DNA of 64,000 bases, from the NCBI RefSeq assembly GCF_003344625.1, contig NZ_QPKJ02000001.1, positions 992,001 through 1,056,000 of the forward strand. The letters are read 5' to 3'. Below the pieces are notes generated by a model. That model had not been told where the DNA came from. It ran no database searches and saw only the letters and a program-made list of their open reading frames with translations. The translations under genes and the position numbers were made by a program. Each line of letters begins with the position of its first letter. Positions within the stretch are counted from its first letter, which is position 1. Origin of the DNA: Solirubrobacter deserti (GTDB taxonomy: Bacteria; Actinomycetota; Thermoleophilia; Solirubrobacterales; Solirubrobacteraceae). Positions 22,194 through 34,970 of this stretch are shown here, piece after piece.

Positions 22194-23252
22194 ATGCCCG
22201 TTGCCCCTGCGCCGAGCGAGTCCGAAGCCGCGGAGCGCCTCGCTGCGCGCACGCTCGAGCTGATCGACATCGCCTCGGAGTCCCGCCACGAGGCCGCGCT
22301 CGCCGAGCACGTGGCGAGCGTGCTGCGCGGGGGCGGCGCCGTGGTCGAGGACCTCGGCGACTCCTGTGTGCTCGCCTACCCGTCCGAGACGCGCCCCCAG
22401 GTGCTGCTCGCCGGTCACCTCGACACCGTGCCCGCGCAGGACAACCTCCCCGGTCGGATCGAGGACGGCCGCGTGTTCGGGCTCGGCGCTTCGGACATGA
22501 AGGGCGCCCTGGCCGTGATGATCGAGCTCGTGCTGGCGCGGGTGCCGTACGCGGCGGTGTTCTTCCCCCGTGAGGAGCTGCCGGCGACCGAGAGCGCGCT
22601 CGCGCCGCTGCTGGAGCGGCACACGCTCCAGCAGGAGTTCGTGGTGGTGATGGAGCCCACCGACGGCGAGCTGCACGCGGGCTGCCTGGGCAACATCAAC
22701 GCCACGTGGACGTTCACCGGGCGCAGCGCGCACTCCGCGCGGCCGTGGCAGGGCGTCAACGCCATCCACCAGGCGGCGCTGGGGATCGCGGCGCTCGCGG
22801 CCGCGCCCTCGCTGCCCGTCGACTTCCACGGACTCACCTTCCACGAGGTGGCGTCGGTGACGAAGGTCAGCGGTGGGATCGCCATGAACGTGGTCCCGGA
22901 GACGGCGACGGCACACGTCAACTTCCGCTACGCGCCCGGCCGCACGCCGGCCGAGGCCGAGGCGCGGCTGCTCGCGCTCACGCAGGGCCTCGGGGCGCTG
23001 ACGGTGGACGGGAACGCGCCTTCGGGCGCCGTCGCCGTCGATCACCCGCTCGCACAGAAGCTGATCACCGCGGGCGACCTGCACGTCGCGCCCAAGCAGG
23101 CGTGGACGCCCGTGGCCGAGTTCGCCGCGGCCGGCTACCCCGCGGTGAACTTCGGACCGGGCGAGACCGCGCAGGCGCACCAGCGCGGCGAGGGCATCGG
23201 CGTCGACCGGCTGCTGCACGCCCACCGCGTCCTGGAGGCGTTCGGCGCATGA
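22194..23252 (+). CDS. dapE: succinyl-diaminopimelate desuccinylase (actinobacterial type)
   Basis: 352 residues, M20 metallopeptidase family. Metal-binding motifs are LLAGHLDTVPAQDN (His, Asp), FGLGASDMKGALAVM (bridging Asp) and FFPREELPATES (catalytic Glu). The dimerisation domain holds TGRSAHSARPWQGVN, and the last metal His lies in NFGPGETAQAHQRGE. It removes succinate from N-succinyl-LL-diaminopimelate in lysine and peptidoglycan synthesis. The stop overlaps the dapC start (ATGA), so the two successive steps are encoded together. Confidence 0.9.
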   Translation: MPVAPAPSESEAAERLAARTLELIDIASESRHEAALAEHVASVLRGGGAVVEDLGDSCVLAYPSETRPQVLLAGHLDTVPAQDNLPGRIEDGRVFGLGASDMKGALAVMIELVLARVPYAAVFFPREELPATESALAPLLERHTLQQEFVVVMEPTDGELHAGCLGNINATWTFTGRSAHSARPWQGVNAIHQAALGIAALAAAPSLPVDFHGLTFHEVASVTKVSGGIAMNVVPETATAHVNFRYAPGRTPAEAEARLLALTQGLGALTVDGNAPSGAVAVDHPLAQKLITAGDLHVAPKQAWTPVAEFAAAGYPAVNFGPGETAQAHQRGEGIGVDRLLHAHRVLEAFGA

Positions 23253-24361
23253 TCAGGCTCTCCCCCGTCCTCGACGGGCTCGGCACCTACCCGTTCGTGA
23301 AGCTCGAGGCCGCGCGGGCGCGGCTGCGCTCCCAGGGCGTGGAGCTCATCGACTTCGGCATGGGCGAGCCGCGTGAGGAGACCCCGGCGTTCATCCGCGA
23401 GGCGCTCGCGGCGGCGATCCAGCCGCTCGCGCCCTATCCCAGCGCGGTCGGGCTGCCGGAGCTGCGGGCGGCGATCGCGGGCTGGGCGCAGCGCCGCTTC
23501 GGCACTTCGCTGGACCCCGACACGCAGATCGTCCCGACGCTGGGCTCCAAGGAGGCGGTGTTCGGGCTCGCGCACGTGTTCGGCGGCGACCAGGTCGTGA
23601 TCCCGCAGCCCGCCTATCCCGTCTACGACCGCGGCGCGCGCTTCGCGGGCAAGGAGGTCGTCGAGCTGCCGCTGCGCGAGGCCGACGGCTGGCTGCCGGA
23701 CCTCGGCGCCGTCGACTGGTCGCGCGTCGCGATCCTCTGGCTCAACTACCCGAACAACCCGACGGGCGCGACCGCGCCGCTCGACTTCTACGTCGAGGCC
23801 GCGGCGCTGGCCCGCAAGCACGGGTTCGTGCTGGCGTCCGACGAGGCGTACTCGGAGCTGTACTTCGGCGACCGCGCCCCCGAGTCCGCCCTCCAGCTCA
23901 CCGACCTGCGCCACGTCGCGGTGTTCAACACGCTGTCCAAGCGCTCGTCGATGCCCGGCTACCGTTCCGGCTTCGTCGCGGGCGACCCGGAGATCGTCGC
24001 CGCGCTCAAGAAGTACCGGCCGAACGTCGGCGTCGCACCTCCGGACGTGCTCCAGCACGCGGCGATCGCCGCCTGGAACGAGGAAGCGCACGTCACCGAG
24101 GTCCGCACCCGTTATCAGGCCAAGCGTGATCTGTTGCTGCCGGCGCTCGAGGCGCTGGGGCTGCGCTCCGCGGGCGGCGACGCGTCGTTCTTCCTGTGGA
24201 TGGAAGGGTCCGACGAGCTCGCCGCCCGCTGGCTCGAGCGGGGCGTCATCGTCGCGCCCGGCTCGTTCTTCGGCCCTGCGGGCGAGGGCTACCTGCGGCT
24301 CGCGCTCGTCCCGCCGCTGGACGCGATCGAGCGTGCGGTCGAGCTCATGCGAGCACCTTGA
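23249..24361 (+). CDS. dapC: succinyldiaminopimelate aminotransferase
   Basis: 370 residues, fold-type I PLP aminotransferase. Visible motifs are [68 protein letters not shown], the PLP lysine in [18 protein letters not shown], and LRLALVPP near the end. It makes N-succinyl-LL-DAP from the keto form, directly before DapE. ATGA-coupled to dapE; 17 bp of 3' overlap with the convergent chemoreceptor gene. Confidence 0.88.
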
Positions 24362-26217: not shown

Positions 26218-27174
26218 TCAGTTGTTGGCGTGAAGTGCCGCGTTCAGGCCCTGCCAGCTGCCTGACCGCGGAAGCGCCTCGACCGTGCCGGTCTTCGAGT
26301 TGCGCCGGAACAGCAGGCCGTTCGCGCCGCTCAGGTCCCGTCCCTTGACGGTCTCACCGTCCGGCAACGTGACGACCGTGCCGGCCGTGACGTAGAGCCC
26401 GGCCTCGACCGTGCACTCGTCCCCGAGCGAGATGCCGATCCCGGCGTTCGCGCCCAGCAGGCAGCGCTCGCCGATCGAGATGACCTCGGAGCCGCCGCCG
26501 CTGAGCGTGCCCATGATCGACGCGCCGCCGCCGACGTCCGAGCCATCACCCACGACCACGCCGGCGCTGATCCGGCCCTCGACCATGCTCGTGCCGAGCG
26601 TGCCGGCGTTGAAGTTCACGAAGCCCTCGTGCATGACGGTCGTGCCCTCGGCCAGGTGCGCGCCCAGCCGCACGCGGTCGGCGTCCGCGACGCGCACGCC
26701 GGAGGGCGCGACGTAGTCGGTCATACGCGGGAACTTGTCGACGCTGAAGACCTGCAGCGCGATGCCCTCCCCACGCGCCTTGAGCTGCACCGCGGTGAGG
26801 TGGGCAGGGTCGACCGGGCCGGCGCTCGTCCACGCGACGTTCGGCAGTACGCCGAAGATGCCGTCGAGGCTGATCGAGTGCGGCTTGACGAGCCGGTGGC
26901 TGAGCAGGTGCAGGCGCAGGTAGGCGTCGGCGGTGTTGCGGGGCGGCGTGTTGAGGTCGGCGATCCGGGTCAGCACCGCGGCCTGGCGGACGTCGCGCAG
27001 CTCGTCGGTACGCAGGGCCGTCGGCAGGCCGTACTCGGACGCCTTCTCCGTGCTCAGCTGCGTGAGCGCCGACTCACCCTTGGAGCCGAGCTGCGGGTCG
27101 GGATAGAAGACCTCGAGGATGCGGTCGCCCGCGTACGTCGCCAGCCCGGCACCCCAGGCCCCACCTTCTGTCAT
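26218..27174 (-). CDS. dapD: 2,3,4,5-tetrahydropyridine-2,6-dicarboxylate N-succinyltransferase
   Basis: 318 residues, the size of actinobacterial DapD. The C-terminal half is a left-handed beta helix with hexapeptide-like repeats ([20 protein letters not shown], then [20 protein letters not shown] and [19 protein letters not shown]). The conserved [10 protein letters not shown] motif is present. It succinylates tetrahydrodipicolinate using succinyl-CoA, the entry to the succinylase branch whose next steps are DapC and DapE. Its ATG overlaps the stop of the NmrA-like gene upstream. Confidence 0.92.
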
Positions 27175-28031
27175 GCCTGCTCCTTGAATGCGTCCACGTG
27201 ATCCTTCGCGAACTCGTCGATCGTGCGCGGGTCACGGCCGAGCGCGTCCTTGACGCCCGAGGTCACCATCTGCAGCCCGCCGCCGGCGTACTGCTCGAAC
27301 TGCTCGGTCAGCCCTTCGGCGTTCCACGGCGGGACCCCCGCGCGGACGAGTTCGCGCTTGAGCGCCTCGACCGGGATCTCCTGCACCGTGACCTGACGGC
27401 CCGCGGCCGCGAACACCCGCTTGGCCTGGTCACGGTAGGACACCGGCTCGGGCCCGGAGAGCCCGTAGGCCTTGCCCTCGTGGCCCTCCTCGGTGAGCGC
27501 GACCGCGGCCACCTCGGCGACGTCGCGCGCGTCCACGATGCTGAACGCCGCGTCCGGCACGGGTGAGTAGAACGTCCCGTCCAGCACGCGCGCGCCCCAG
27601 CTGAGCGTGTTCTGCATGAAGCTCGTCGGGCGCAGCAGCGTCCACGCCATGCCCGAGTCCTTGAGCGCCTGCTCGACCTTCGCGTGCGTGCGGGCGAAGC
27701 GCAGCGGCGCCTCGGGGCTCGCGCCGATCACCGACAACTTGACGATGTGCTTGACGCCGGCCTCGCGCGCGGTCTCCAGGAACGCCTGCTCGAACTCGGA
27801 CTGCATCGGGCCCATCGGCGAGACCAGGTACGCGCGCTCGACGGCCTCCAGCGCCGGCCCGAGCGTGCGCGGGTCGCCCAGGTCGCCCGTGACCGGCTCG
27901 AAGCCCAGGTCGCGCAGGTGGTGGGCCTTGGTCTCGTCGCGCACCAGGGCGCGGGCCTCGGCGCCGCGGGCCTTGAGCGCCTTGAGGACCTCCATGCCGG
28001 TCGTCCCGGTCGCTCCGGTCACCAGCAGCAT
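27171..28031 (-). CDS. NAD(P)-binding NmrA-like atypical SDR
   Basis: 286 residues. A Rossmann fold begins [20 protein letters not shown] (GxxGxxG variant), followed by [11 protein letters not shown] and [14 protein letters not shown]. The catalytic Tyr of classical SDRs is not in its usual context, fitting the NmrA/QOR2-like atypical group, which either senses NADP or reduces quinones. It starts directly after the dapF stop codon and overlaps the dapD start by ATGA, so it lies inside a dapF-NmrA-dapD transcription unit. No DAP-pathway role is known for this family. Confidence 0.82.
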
Positions 28032-28886
28032 CTATTCGGCCTCCATGTGTTGTTTGAGATCCTCTGGGGGGCTGCCGCCCCCCAGGCCCCCCGCTAGGAA
28101 CTCCTCGCTCAGTTGCGCGGCGTAGATGGGCTCGGCCCACCCGGTCAGGTCCACGTGCAGGGACTCGTCGACGTCGACGACCAGCTCGCCCCCGTCCAGC
28201 TGGACGGTCACGGGCGAGTCGCCGCCGCGGACCACGTGTGCCACCGCCGCGCCGCTCGCGCCGGTGCCGGAGGACAGCGTCTCCCCCACGCCGCGCTCGA
28301 AGATGCGCGCCCGGATCGTGTCCGGGGCCACTTCTTTCCAGAACGAGACGTTCGTGCGGTTCGGGAACAGGGCGCTGCGCTCGATCTGCGGGCCGATCGC
28401 CTGCAGATCGAGCGCGTCCGGGTCCTGGACGCGGATCGCGCACTGCGGGTTGCCGATGGCGACGTGCTGGAAGCGGTAGCCCGCGACCTCGCCGGTGCCG
28501 TCGGGCGGCCCGTCGGGATAGTTCGGGCTGGTGAGGCTGGCCCGGCCCATGTCCACCCGGCACGTGGTCGGGCTCAGGATCGTCGGCCGGATCTCCCCGG
28601 CGAGCGTCTGGATGGAGAACGTGTCCGCGTCCGTCCAGTGCCGGCGCAGGTACAGGATCGCCTCGCGCGCGCCGTTGCCGCTCAGCTCGGCCTCGCTGCC
28701 GTCCGGGTTGAAGATCCGCAGCCGCGCGACGTAGCCCGGCTCGTCCGGTTTGGTCAGCACGAGCACGCCGTCGGCGCCCGGCCCGAAGTGCGGATCGCAC
28801 AGCCGCTGGACGGTGTTCGGGGACAGCTCGACCTCCTCGAAGATGAGGTAGTCGTTGCCCAGCGCCTGCCACTTCTCGAAGCGCAC
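28032..28886 (-). CDS. dapF: diaminopimelate epimerase homologue with Ser/Ser in place of the catalytic Cys pair
   Basis: 284 residues with clear DapF architecture: WQALGNDYLIF, RIFNPDGSEAELSGNGAR, VAIGNPQCAIRV, LFPNRTNVSFW and RIFERGVGETLSSGTGASG. DapF normally converts LL-DAP to meso-DAP using two cysteines, in CGNGxR and in (A/S)CGTG. Here both are serine: Ser69 (AGC) and Ser206 (TCC). The usual His of GNPHC is Gln148. The other substrate-binding residues (Asn11, Asn60, Asn146, Asn179, Glu197, Arg198) are retained. The C-terminal 22 residues (from FLAGG) are an extra tail partly encoded by a palindrome. It may be a divergent epimerase or have another activity; the fold assignment is secure, the activity is not. 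Confidence 0.85.
   Translation of the reverse strand: MRFEKWQALGNDYLIFEEVELSPNTVQRLCDPHFGPGADGVLVLTKPDEPGYVARLRIFNPDGSEAELSGNGAREAILYLRRHWTDADTFSIQTLAGEIRPTILSPTTCRVDMGRASLTSPNYPDGPPDGTGEVAGYRFQHVAIGNPQCAIRVQDPDALDLQAIGPQIERSALFPNRTNVSFWKEVAPDTIRARIFERGVGETLSSGTGASGAAVAHVVRGGDSPVTVQLDGGELVVDVDESLHVDLTGWAEPIYAAQLSEEFLAGGLGGGSPPEDLKQHMEAE
28064..28085. repeat. 9-bp-stem GC palindrome inside the dapF 3' end
   Basis: CTGGGGGGC, loop TGCC, GCCCCCCAG; a perfect stem lying in the codons for the Gly/Pro-rich DapF tail (GGLGGGSPPED). A second C-run (GGCCCCCC) follows. It looks like a REP-type palindrome that has extended the reading frame. Confidence 0.45.
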
Positions 28887-28890
28887 GGTG

Positions 28891-29751
28891 TTAGATCATG
28901 GCGATCAGTTCGGCGGCGACGTCCTGCGGGGTGCGATCGGTCACGTCGATGCGGTGCGCGCCGGGCAGCTTGCGCAGCCACGTGAGCTGGCGTTTGGCGT
29001 ACCGGCGGGTGCTCGTCTTCATCGCCTCGACGTCCCCGTCCAGCAGCTCCTGGAAGCCCACGGCGCGGCGGGCGGTGGCGCTCGCGCGGTCGGCGACGGC
29101 GCGCACCTCGTCGGCCGCCCCGGCCGCGATCATCGCGTCGATCCGGGCCTCGATCCGCGCGTACAGCCGTTCGCGGTCCATCACCAGCGCGGCGAGCAGC
29201 GTCGGGTGGCGCGTGTGCTCGGTCCACAGCTGGTCGCTCGTCGTGTGCGGGTGCTGGCCCGTCGCGAGCAGCTCGTGCGCGCGGATGATGCGGTGCGTGT
29301 CCGTCGGCCGGATGTTGAGCTCCGGGGGCAGCTCGGCGTAGAGCTCGGCGAGGTCGCGGGCGGCGAGCGCTTCCCGGATCGCGGGGTCCACCGGCGGCCG
29401 CAGGTCCAGCTCGGCGAGCGCGGCCCGCAGATAGAGGCCGGTGCCGCCGACCACGATCGGCCGGCGCCCCTGCTCGATGAGCCCGTCGATCTCCGCGTGG
29501 GCGCGCTGGGCGAAGGCGCCGGCCGAGTAGGTCTGGTCGATCGGCACGAAGCCGAGCAGCCGGTGCTCGAGCCGGCCCTGCTCCTGCGCGTCGGCCGCGC
29601 CGGTGAGGATCGGCAGCCCCGCGTAGATCTGCATCGAGTCCGCGGACACCGCCACCGGGTCCTCCCCGCGCTCGCGCAGCGCGTCGGCGAGGGCGATGGC
29701 GACGGCGGTCTTGCCGACGCCCGTCGGCCCGAACACAGCGAAGACTTGCAC
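28891..29751 (-). CDS. miaA: tRNA dimethylallyltransferase
   Basis: 286 residues, GTG start. P-loop FAVFGPTGVGKTAVAIALAD, then SADSMQIYAGLPILTGA, VVGGTGLYLRAAL, RPTDTHRIIRAHE and RRYAKRQLTWLRKLP are all MiaA signatures. It isopentenylates A37 of tRNAs reading UNN codons; MiaB, encoded at 35.5 kb, then methylthiolates the same base. It ends 4 bp before the dapF start, so dapF is probably cotranscribed. Length is normal for bacterial MiaA. Confidence 0.93.
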   Translation of the reverse strand: MQVFAVFGPTGVGKTAVAIALADALRERGEDPVAVSADSMQIYAGLPILTGAADAQEQGRLEHRLLGFVPIDQTYSAGAFAQRAHAEIDGLIEQGRRPIVVGGTGLYLRAALAELDLRPPVDPAIREALAARDLAELYAELPPELNIRPTDTHRIIRAHELLATGQHPHTTSDQLWTEHTRHPTLLAALVMDRERLYARIEARIDAMIAAGAADEVRAVADRASATARRAVGFQELLDGDVEAMKTSTRRYAKRQLTWLRKLPGAHRIDVTDRTPQDVAAELIAMI

Positions 29752-32772: not shown

Positions 32773-32871
32773 GAGCGCCAACGCGCCAATACGGCGGAGA
32801 CCGCTAAAGGTTCGGGCGGCGGCTGCCGATGAACCGGATAGACCGCCCGCCGAGGCGGTTGTTGCGTTTCT
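32773..32871 (+). repeat. 99-bp direct repeat, copy B
   Basis: Second copy of the element at 32395. Promoter motif TAAAG (32805-32809), 15 nt, GCCGATGA (32825-32832). Its hairpin (ACCGCC...GGCGGT, about 32842-32859) lies directly downstream of the radical SAM gene's 3' end on the opposite strand, and the last two bases overlap that gene's stop codon. The hairpin could therefore also terminate the minus-strand gene. Confidence 0.75.
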
Positions 32872-34957
32872 AGAACAAGGTGCCCTGCTTCACGCGGGGG
32901 ATCGGTGTCGGCATCAGAGGTGGTGGGGTCGGGCCGCCTCGGTGACGGCGGAAGGGGTCCATCTCGCGGTCTGGGCGCAGCCAGGGTGCGCCCGCGGCGG
33001 CTTCGATCTTGTGGCGTTCGGCCGGTGTGAGGCGGGAACTCTTCGCGTAGAGGCGTTCGTAGCGCGGGACGAGGTCCGGGCGGTAGTCGCGCAGCCAGTC
33101 CATGAAGATCTTGCGGACCGGGCCAGCCAGGAACAGGGTCTGGCCGCCGATGTAGGAGGCGTTCGCCTCGGTGGCAAGCTCGACGATCTGCTCGACCTGA
33201 TCTGGTGAGTCGTTGATGCCCGGGATCAGCGGGGCGATGAGGACGCCGGTCGGGATGCCGTTGCGGTTGAGCTCGGCGACGGCCTCGAGGCGGGCGCGCG
33301 GGTGCGGCGTGTGCGGTTCGGTGGCGCGCCAGGCCTTCTCGTCGAGGGTCGGGACCGAGAGGCAGGCGCTGATGTCCGTGACCTCGGCGATCTGCTTCAG
33401 GAGGTCCACGTCGCGCAGGATGAGCGGCGACTTGGTGAGCACGGAGCACGGGTTGTGGTGGTCGCGGAACGCCTCCCAGATGCCGCGCATGAGCTTGTAG
33501 CGACCCTCGACCCACTGGTACGGGTCCGTGTTCGTGCCCAGGGCGACGCTCTCGCCCTTCCAGGACGGCCGGCGCAGCTCCGCGCGCAGGACCTCGGGCA
33601 CGTTGACCTTGACGACGATCTCACGCTCGAAGTCGCGGCCGGCGTCGAGTTCCAGGTACTCGTGCGTGGGACGGGCGAAGCAGTTGTGGCTGACCACGCC
33701 GTTGGCGATGAAGTCGCCGGTGCCGGTCGTGATGTCGTACATCGGGATCTCGAGCCCGAGCGGCTCCACCGACGTCACCCGCAGCGAACCCGGGAACTTG
33801 ACGGCGCGGCCCGCGATCGTGCACTTGCGCCGGACCGCCGGCCAGACGGTGTGGAAGAAGCGCAGGTGGTTGGCGCTGCCGCCGAGCAGGCGCAGCGTCT
33901 GCGCGTTCTCGGACACGAAGTGGAAGCCGAGCACCCGCAGGCTGTCCGCCGCTCGGCGCAGCACAGCCGGGTCCGAGTTCTCGAGCCGGACGGCTTCGCC
34001 GCTCGAGCCGTCCGCGTCGAACACACCCGCCAAGAACCCCTTGCCCCATTGCTCCGACGCGTCCCACGGCCAGGTGAGCACCTGGCGCAGGGACTCGGCG
34101 CTCGGCCGCGCCGCGCGTACCTCGCGGTAACCCGCCACCGCCGCCGCGGTCATGGTCAAGCCGAGCTCGGCCAGGTAGAGGTCGACACGCTCGAGCGCCT
34201 CGCGCCCGGCCGGCGTGAGCCGGAACAGATGATCGTCGCCGTGGATGGCGCCGCACAGGTAGCCGCGCCGGTAGTCGACGTCCTCCACGGGACCCTCGGC
34301 GAACTGGCCCACACCGGCCAGCCGGTCGCCCACCGCGAGGACGCGGCGCCCGCCCGCGGCGCTCGACCGGCCGCGCCGGCGGGTGCCGACGGCCACCGGC
34401 GGCGCGAGGAGCGCGGCGCCCGCCCTGTGCCCCGACGAGCGCGCAGACGGCCCGACGAGCCGCTCGGCCACAGGACGGCCGGCGCACGCGCCGTCGGCCG
34501 CGGCGACGAAGCTCCAGCCGCCGCGCGAGAGGAAGCGGTGGTCGCCGCTCGCGAGCAGCTCCGTGCCGTCCTCGAGCGTCACGCGGTACGCGGACTTGCG
34601 CGTGGACCAGTGGGCAAGGACCTCCGTCTCCACGAAGCGGCGCTTGCGGGTCCCGTAGATGCGGTCCCCCACCCGCAGGTCCGCGAGCTCGCGGACGCCG
34701 CCGTCCGCGAGCAGGATCTGCGTGTCTCCCGCCAGGCAGTACACGCAGGCGTGGGAACAGCCGCGGTACGGGTTGACCGTCCAGTTGAACGGCACGCGGG
34801 AAGCGGCGGGCACGCGGTTGAGCGCCGATTTGGTCCGGACCTCGTGGAAGCGCATGTCCAGCGCCTCCGGCGCGTCGAACCGGCGTACCACCGTGTCCCC
34901 CAGGCCGGGCAGCCGCCCGGCGTCGTCCCGCTCGATGACTTGTGATGACCAGCGCAC
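32870..34957 (-). CDS. Rv2578c-like radical SAM protein interrupted by an intein
   Basis: 695 residues from the GTG before RWSSQ, which aligns with the family N-terminus (a GTG at 34963 is also in frame). The host protein is about 343 residues: FHEVRTKSALNRVP, NPYRGCSHACVYC, FARPTHEYLELD, ESVALGTNTDPYQ, CSVLTKSPLILRD and GVLIAPLIPGINDSPDQ mark the SPL-like/PA0069-Rv2578c radical SAM family. The 352-residue intein splits the CxxxCxxC cluster motif, so the enzyme can only bind its [4Fe-4S] cluster after splicing restores CSHACVYCFARP. The biochemical role is unknown; a DNA-damage link is suggested by an SOS box at the start and by the known LexA control of Rv2578c in mycobacteria, as I recall it. 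Confidence 0.9.
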   Translation of the reverse strand: MRWSSQVIERDDAGRLPGLGDTVVRRFDAPEALDMRFHEVRTKSALNRVPAASRVPFNWTVNPYRGCSHACVYCLAGDTQILLADGGVRELADLRVGDRIYGTRKRRFVETEVLAHWSTRKSAYRVTLEDGTELLASGDHRFLSRGGWSFVAAADGACAGRPVAERLVGPSARSSGHRAGAALLAPPVAVGTRRRGRSSAAGGRRVLAVGDRLAGVGQFAEGPVEDVDYRRGYLCGAIHGDDHLFRLTPAGREALERVDLYLAELGLTMTAAAVAGYREVRAARPSAESLRQVLTWPWDASEQWGKGFLAGVFDADGSSGEAVRLENSDPAVLRRAADSLRVLGFHFVSENAQTLRLLGGSANHLRFFHTVWPAVRRKCTIAGRAVKFPGSLRVTSVEPLGLEIPMYDITTGTGDFIANGVVSHNCFARPTHEYLELDAGRDFEREIVVKVNVPEVLRAELRRPSWKGESVALGTNTDPYQWVEGRYKLMRGIWEAFRDHHNPCSVLTKSPLILRDVDLLKQIAEVTDISACLSVPTLDEKAWRATEPHTPHPRARLEAVAELNRNGIPTGVLIAPLIPGINDSPDQVEQIVELATEANASYIGGQTLFLAGPVRKIFMDWLRDYRPDLVPRYERLYAKSSRLTPAERHKIEAAAGAPWLRPDREMDPFRRHRGGPTPPPLMPTPIPRVKQGTLF
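33683..34738 (-). mobile_element. LAGLIDADG intein coding region
   Basis: 352 residues, in frame. It begins with Cys and block A CLAGDTQILLADGGVRELAD. Block B is ELLASGDHRFLSRGGW with the conserved His. Block F is PMYDITTGTGDFIANGVV and it ends SHN, followed by extein Cys. Two dodecapeptide motifs with intact acidic residues, RGYLCGAIHGDD and KGFLAGVFDADGSS, indicate a probably active DOD homing endonuclease. Splice-site residues Cys1, the penultimate His, the terminal Asn and Cys+1 are all present, so self-splicing is expected. Confidence 0.92.
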
Positions 34958-34970
34958 GAACACATGTTCG
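34957..34970. promoter_or_regulatory. LexA (SOS) box at the radical SAM gene start
   Basis: CGAAC, ACAT, GTTCG: a perfect 5+4+5 palindrome matching the actinobacterial SOS box core. It sits immediately in front of the chosen GTG start, so LexA binding would block transcription initiation. Confidence 0.7.

Follow-up and report, generated by a model that had tools for sequence, protein, structure and literature searches.

A diaminopimelate epimerase homolog of Solirubrobacter deserti with serines at both catalytic cysteine positions, and the recurrence of this active site in other bacteria

The 64,000-nucleotide stretch of Solirubrobacter deserti DNA analyzed here (hereafter, the window) carries a dapF homolog (28032–28886, minus strand) whose product has serine at the positions of both catalytic cysteines of diaminopimelate (DAP) epimerase, on which many bacteria depend for lysine and cell wall synthesis. 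Judging from sequence comparisons, this gene probably (roughly 70%) encodes the organism's real DAP epimerase, which would work with two serines, and we infer, as the best reading, that functional two-serine DAP epimerases arose on several occasions. The fuller account, which we favor with confidence only modestly above even, is that of a cofactor-free epimerase whose sole acid/base pair would be two serines. It would have arisen several times from a cysteine enzyme (in Thermoleophilia, in Acidobacteriota group 4, and in a Chloroflexota/deltaproteobacterial/Nitrospirota clade), with Ser/Cys and Cys/Ser forms still extant and the helix-cap loop retuned in most; resistance of a serine pair to oxidative shutdown may have been what selection favored.

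The protein of 284 residues, read from a GTG start codon in an intact frame, scored 190 bits against the whole-length curated DapF model TIGR00652 (cut-off 114.65), and its predicted fold is the two-domain fold of DapF-like proteins. Phmmer alignments of the window protein with three solved DapFs placed Ser69 (codon AGC, 28680–28682, minus strand) at the first catalytic cysteine, Ser206 (codon TCC, 28269–28271, minus strand) at the second, and Gln148 (codon CAG, 28443–28445, minus strand) at the histidine of the GNPH motif, confirming the three substitutions proposed in a first-pass annotation of this DNA. Since neither the CGNG nor the CGTG motif retains its cysteine, we class the protein as a Ser/Ser variant and not as a canonical DapF. 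In the structure model, Ser69 and Ser206 immediately precede helices 70–83 and 207–219, respectively. The alignment columns further revealed that Asn11, Asn60, Asn146, Asn179, Glu197, and Arg198 are retained, as had been claimed for the other substrate-contact residues; part of this set is named as contacts in the accessible text of PMC12039745. Column 148 was His in 55/55 Cys/Cys rows and Gln in all 16 rows from the window's order, and other well-kept columns differ between the Cys/Cys and order rows as well (Gly8 to Ala, Trp196 to Phe, and Ala212 to Gly). The cysteines of the window protein lie at positions 30, 109, and 149, of which Cys30 alone is common to the 16 order rows; because Cys30 also occurs in 35 of the 55 Cys/Cys rows, it is unlikely to be a relocated catalyst, and the idea that the true catalytic cysteines lie elsewhere in the protein was rejected.

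DapD, DapE, and the DapC aminotransferase produce LL-DAP in the succinylase pathway, and LysA is the decarboxylase of meso-DAP. In the window, dapF is preceded by miaA (28891–29751, minus strand; TIGR00174, 161.3 bits, cut-off 148.65) and followed by a gene for an NmrA-like NAD(P)H-binding protein (27171–28031, minus strand; PF05368, 84.2 bits, cut-off 27) and then by dapD, encoding tetrahydrodipicolinate N-succinyltransferase (26218–27174, minus strand; TIGR03535, 475.3 bits, cut-off 441.5). The location between miaA and dapD given in the first-pass annotation therefore stands for miaA, whereas direct adjacency to dapD does not, owing to the intervening NmrA-like gene. The nearby dapE (succinyl-DAP desuccinylase; 22194–23252, plus strand) passed its model (TIGR01900, 334.8 bits, cut-off 304.2), while the gene called dapC (23249–24361, plus strand) is a dapC-like aminotransferase gene whose best match, TIGR03537 (DapC), remained below the cut-off (364.4 against 453.6 bits).

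This placement in the DAP/lysine pathway extends to the whole genome. In two overlapping samples, LysA scored above its cut-off in 112 of 121 genomes of the order, among them that of the window, and in 226 of 249 genomes of the class. A search of the window's own genome (G000) for meso-DAP dehydrogenase (TIGR01921) gave no match, which rejects this enzyme as a substitute route there, and only 3/121 order and 1/249 class genomes had the dehydrogenase over the cut-off; the earlier suggestion that meso-DAP comes from another route is thus disfavored as far as this enzyme is concerned. The three positive order genomes (G329, G256, and G325; loci L073–L075) all belong to genus g23 and retain a Ser/Gln/Ser DapF (L295–L297). 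As to wall chemistry, the accessible text of PMC3035278 states meso-DAP for all Solirubrobacterales members as of 2010, which is also the basis for meso-DAP in Patulibacter, and meso-DAP was reported in a Solirubrobacter (PMC10722151, in the part available); our literature search returned nothing on Miltoncostaea with DAP and, in the accessible text, nothing on the wall of Gaiella. The argument from need draws on LysA and on the chemotaxonomy of relatives rather than of the window's strain. With LysA nearly universal, the dehydrogenase nearly absent, and meso-DAP reported, these bacteria are expected to possess an epimerase, for which no candidate other than the Ser/Ser protein is known.

A second DapF, the first thing to look for according to the first-pass annotation, was rejected by the finding of a single PF01678 gene in the window's own genome. 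Across 221 order genomes, 205 passed the TIGR00652 cut-off, and the number of matches per genome was one in 201, two in 9, and none in 11, where weak E-values suggest that part of the nine two-match genomes reflect split genes. The 12 single-contig order genomes listed each had one match, and the 11 of them that were read (all but G081) were Ser/Gln/Ser, so that gaps in the assemblies concealing a Cys copy do not explain the pattern in general.

Searching 299 class genomes identified a relative in 280, and the site residues were read wherever the DNA was fetched and tallied by genome, with the window's order comprising families f1 to f4. Ser/Gln/Ser was found in 77 of the 79 order genomes read. 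Of the other two, G202 displayed Ser/Gln with site 2 falling outside the fetched match, and G421 (family f1, about 75% complete) gave a Cys/Cys dapF (L259) with 38% identity to the nearest panel row; this reading represents one of two TIGR00652 matches in G421, and the gene is probably foreign, through a contaminant contig or transfer. In the rest of the class, families f7 (50/50 read) and f11 (4/4) were Ser/His/Ser, families f5 (3/3), f6 (3/3), and f8 (7/7) were Cys/Cys, and family f9 (18 genomes read) was divided into 13 Cys/Cys and five Ser/Cys genomes, the latter (L113–L117) being five of the six genomes of genus g51; the tally covers families f1–f9 and f11. Fixation of Ser/Ser across Thermoleophilia, a check proposed earlier, therefore holds, among the genomes read, for the order (77 of 79), f7, and f11 and fails for f5, f6, f8, and f9. 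By motif, all 120 nearest proteins listed, the window's own included, were Ser/Gln/Ser, and the named proteins closest to it carry Solirubrobacter annotations.

The window dapF is under purifying selection, with dN/dS values of 0.18–0.28 in three same-genus pairs. Four same-genus species are split evenly between AGC and TCC as the codon for Ser69, whereas for Ser206 three use AGC and only one TCC. Since switching between AGC and TCC requires two substitutions, made either together or by way of a Cys or Thr codon, the retention of serine despite codon-class switches at both sites points to selection for serine itself; a tolerated cysteine intermediate is one possible path of this switch.

We also examined 80 loci from named genomes that were drawn by two peptide patterns, so that the counts, taken among the matches listed, are no estimate of frequency. 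These comprised 62 Cys/Cys loci, 12 Ser/Gln/Ser loci (seven Solirubrobacterales, two Thermoleophilales, and three unranked; the cultured Patulibacter americanus DSM 16676 is among the 12), and six others, from outside the order, lacking at least one Cys. Among the same listed matches, the six displayed Ser/Asn/Ser in two Acidobacteriota loci, Ser/His/Ser in one locus each from Chloroflexota, a deltaproteobacterium, and a Nitrospirota MAG, and Cys/His/Ser in a Rubrobacteraceae MAG (L215), a half-converted form opposite to the Ser/Cys of f9. Of the 120 listed proteins nearest the Chloroflexota one, 119 were Ser/His/Ser and one (P0199) had Arg at site 1, while the 120 nearest the Acidobacteriota one all had Ser at both sites; both lists begin with the query's own or a near-identical protein. 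The Chloroflexota type (P0121–P0240, 120 listed) also displayed a further active-site change besides the serines, as the Glu of the ERGxGET motif was replaced by Tyr in 81 proteins and by Val or His in 10.

Whole-genome searches of 11 genomes of this recurrence set revealed one DapF in 10, LysA over the cut-off in 10, and meso-DAP dehydrogenase in none of the 11. In two Acidobacteriota, one Chloroflexota, and one deltaproteobacterium, the sole DapF found is Ser/Ser, accompanied by LysA over its cut-off and with no dehydrogenase over the cut-off. The Rubrobacteraceae MAG likewise has a single DapF copy together with LysA; as Rubrobacter walls may have L-lysine in place of meso-DAP, LysA is the one argument for need in this case. 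In the Nitrospirota MAG (G354; L243 and L236), a Cys/Cys dapF located beside a lysA fragment accompanies the Ser/Ser dapF, so that this is not a sole-enzyme case; the two genes may form a genuine pair, or the bin may be mixed. LL-DAP aminotransferase yields LL-DAP directly. In the Chloroflexota locus, miaA and the Ser/Ser dapF are followed by an oppositely oriented LL-DAP aminotransferase gene that is truncated at the locus edge; it scored 540.8 bits for the subfamily model NF006756 (cut-off 507) and 544.4 bits for the equivalog TIGR03540, below the cut-off of 593.25. A PBP4-type carboxypeptidase gene lies upstream in both Acidobacteriota loci, and no dap genes were found among the scanned neighbors of the deltaproteobacterial and Rubrobacteraceae dapF.

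In a quick tree of 107 rows, whose branch support comes from SH-aLRT alone, the order together with f11, the Chloroflexota-type rows, and the Acidobacteriota-type rows formed separate starred clades, and the Ser/Cys rows of f9 formed a starred clade nested within Cys/Cys rows. On the tree built without the trait columns, at least five changes were required at each site; with further loop columns dropped, the minima were five at site 1 and four at site 2. Constraining all 46 Ser/Ser rows to one clade gave p = 0.057 in the AU test, so that a single Ser/Ser origin is disfavored, though not rejected at the 5% level. The segment around site 2 also differed: in the 55 Cys/Cys rows it is nearly invariant (Ala205 in 53, Thr208 in 53, Gly209 in 55, and Ala210 in 54), whereas the serine types have gained hydroxyls or a thiol here. 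Serine was found at position 205 in the order (15/16), f11 (4/4), f7 (10/13), and the Acidobacteriota type (4/5), at position 208 in f11 (4/4), the Chloroflexota type (7/8), and f7 (5/13), at position 209 in f7 (12/13) and the Chloroflexota type (7/8), and at position 210 in f11 (4/4), the Chloroflexota type (6/8), and the Acidobacteriota type (5/5). Ser205 is the order's only gain in this loop. The Acidobacteriota type carries Cys209 (5/5), which could be part of catalysis there; the window protein does not have this cysteine. Loop changes and Ser at site 2 made two independent pairs on starred branches and four overall, numbers at which a formal test of the loop changes cannot reach significance.

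By position, the roles of the two serines would follow from Anabaena DapF, whose first and second cysteines bind the LL- and the DL-analogue, respectively, according to the available text of PMC12039745. In the LL-to-meso direction, Ser69 would accept the alpha proton of LL-DAP as a desolvated alkoxide that the helix terminus and backbone NHs stabilize, Ser206 would return a proton from the opposite face, and the altered loop around Ser206 may help catalysis. With the His beside the active site lost (position 148 is Gln in the order and Asn in the Acidobacteriota type), no obvious base is left for serine activation; this counts against the two-serine reading, as do the order's other departures at well-kept columns. 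Speculatively, the reason for the swap might be that a serine pair is immune to oxidation, considering that the two cysteines of Corynebacterium glutamicum DapF form a disulfide and that H2O2 inactivates this enzyme (PMC5296763, in the part available); deserts and soils with high UV exposure are described as harboring abundant Solirubrobacter (PMC10722151).

Natural precedents exist for half of this change. In the proline racemase superfamily, the accessible text of PMC4113996 describes an active Agrobacterium vitis 4-hydroxyproline 2-epimerase with Ser93 and a partner cysteine (Cys255 in the text, Cys236 in a legend), the serine being assigned to the trans-to-cis, i.e. L-to-D, direction. A serine at site 1 is hence established chemistry in a cousin, which the Ser/Cys DapFs of f9 would match; the window protein differs in its presumptive substrate from this hydroxyproline enzyme and in having Ser206 where the partner cysteine is kept. 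The new step is two serines together. The Ser/Thr trans-3-hydroxyproline dehydratase of the same source shares the fold and, as in the window protein, has no Cys at either catalytic position, but its reaction is a dehydration, in which the Thr is not oriented for catalysis, and no two-base epimerization; in the part of PMC4364671 available, the Ser-Cys and Ser-Thr types of the superfamily are listed as of unknown function. Canonical DapFs (Haemophilus, E. coli, Corynebacterium, and Anabaena, 9mro) possess Cys/Cys with the GNPH histidine and an Ala before site 2, in contrast to the Ser/Ser, Gln, and Ser of the window protein. The solved DapF mutants C73S (2q9h) and C217S (2q9j) have serine at the positions of the window protein, yet each of these mutants has one engineered serine in an otherwise Cys/Cys enzyme, whereas the two serines of the window protein are natural and fixed. 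A further comparison is Ecl-DER, an aspartate/glutamate racemase that we take to belong to another fold family than DapF. In this cofactor-independent enzyme, a natural Thr replaces one Cys, resembling the hydroxyl swap of the window protein, although only one residue is replaced and the reaction is irreversible (PMC8142540, accessible part). Our literature search found no Ser/Ser epimerase, no natural serine variant of DapF, and no serine DapF in Thermoleophilia in print, which is weak evidence of novelty given that most subscription journals fall outside its coverage.

In E. coli, DapF also binds RppH (complex 6d13). The strongest competing explanation, which we regard as unlikely, is that the Ser/Ser protein lost epimerase activity and was kept for binding or regulation, while an unrelated, unrecognized enzyme, perhaps a broad-specificity PLP racemase, makes meso-DAP. 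The RppH binding and the additional loss of His148 would agree with this, and laboratory Cys-to-Ser changes in relatives greatly cut activity, as documented for C67S and C209S of the histidine racemase HisR (PMC11602996) and remarked upon for the enzyme class in PMC12039745, as far as these sources were available. Such a loss, however, must then have happened several times over, with an unrecognized replacement enzyme in every case, in lineages that retain most other active-site residues and, in the two examined, pathway neighbors. The one known alternative, the dehydrogenase, hardly occurs.

We consider it less likely still that the protein acts on a different substrate as a racemase, epimerase, or dehydratase, its serines being suited to that chemistry as in the Ser/Thr dehydratases of the proline racemase superfamily. 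An active-site serine with an altered reaction is known in that superfamily (PMC4113996), and a Fusobacterium protein annotated as DapF proved to be a histidine racemase in the accessible text of PMC11602996; against this stand the score far over the DapF equivalog cut-off, the dap genes nearby, the LL-DAP aminotransferase gene adjoining dapF in one Chloroflexota locus, the single copy accompanied by LysA, and the wall meso-DAP reported for the order. That the organism has no epimerase at all, with LL-DAP in its wall and lysine imported or made otherwise, is very improbable in view of the reported meso-DAP (PMC3035278) and the 112 LysA-positive order genomes, the window's own among them. Sequencing error, contamination, or gene decay can be dismissed almost completely, because despite an own assembly of 428 contigs with 5.04% estimated contamination, the same three residues occur in a same-species genome (G234), in a same-genus genome of four contigs (G157), and throughout the 77 order genomes noted above, eleven single-contig ones included, while the intact frame and low dN/dS reject decay, as the first-pass annotation had held. 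Between a serine pair and another function, the two options that it had offered, purifying selection, the sole DapF, LysA, and the meso-DAP of the order favor the serine pair; "this lineage", to which the pair had been assigned, is too narrow, as the swap recurs outside the class.

A working two-serine enzyme would bear on a puzzle of DapF, a model enzyme for cofactor-independent racemases, in which a thiolate with a pKa of about 8.5 removes a proton with a pKa of about 29 (PMC12039745, available text). If the two-serine reading is true, catalysis can do without the thiol, and a large share of it falls to the surroundings of the helix ends. The recurrence of the swap in unrelated bacterial groups suggests that the chemistry accepted for this enzyme class is too narrow. 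Kinetic and structural studies have a natural series at hand in the Cys/Cys, Ser/Cys, Cys/Ser, and Ser/Ser forms, of which three occur within one bacterial class, and the covalent binding of aziridine DAP analogues to the cysteines would not be expected in Ser/Ser enzymes. As Ser/Ser proteins pass DapF models without the textbook catalytic residues, these findings also bear on annotation.

Elsewhere in the window, the open reading frame at 32870–34963 (minus strand) encodes a radical SAM protein (PF04055 over the cut-off) with an apparent intein at 33683–34738, to which the Pfam intein splicing model gave a weak match below its cut-off. The apparent intein spans residues 76–427 of the protein, beginning with Cys, ending with His-Asn, and followed by Cys.
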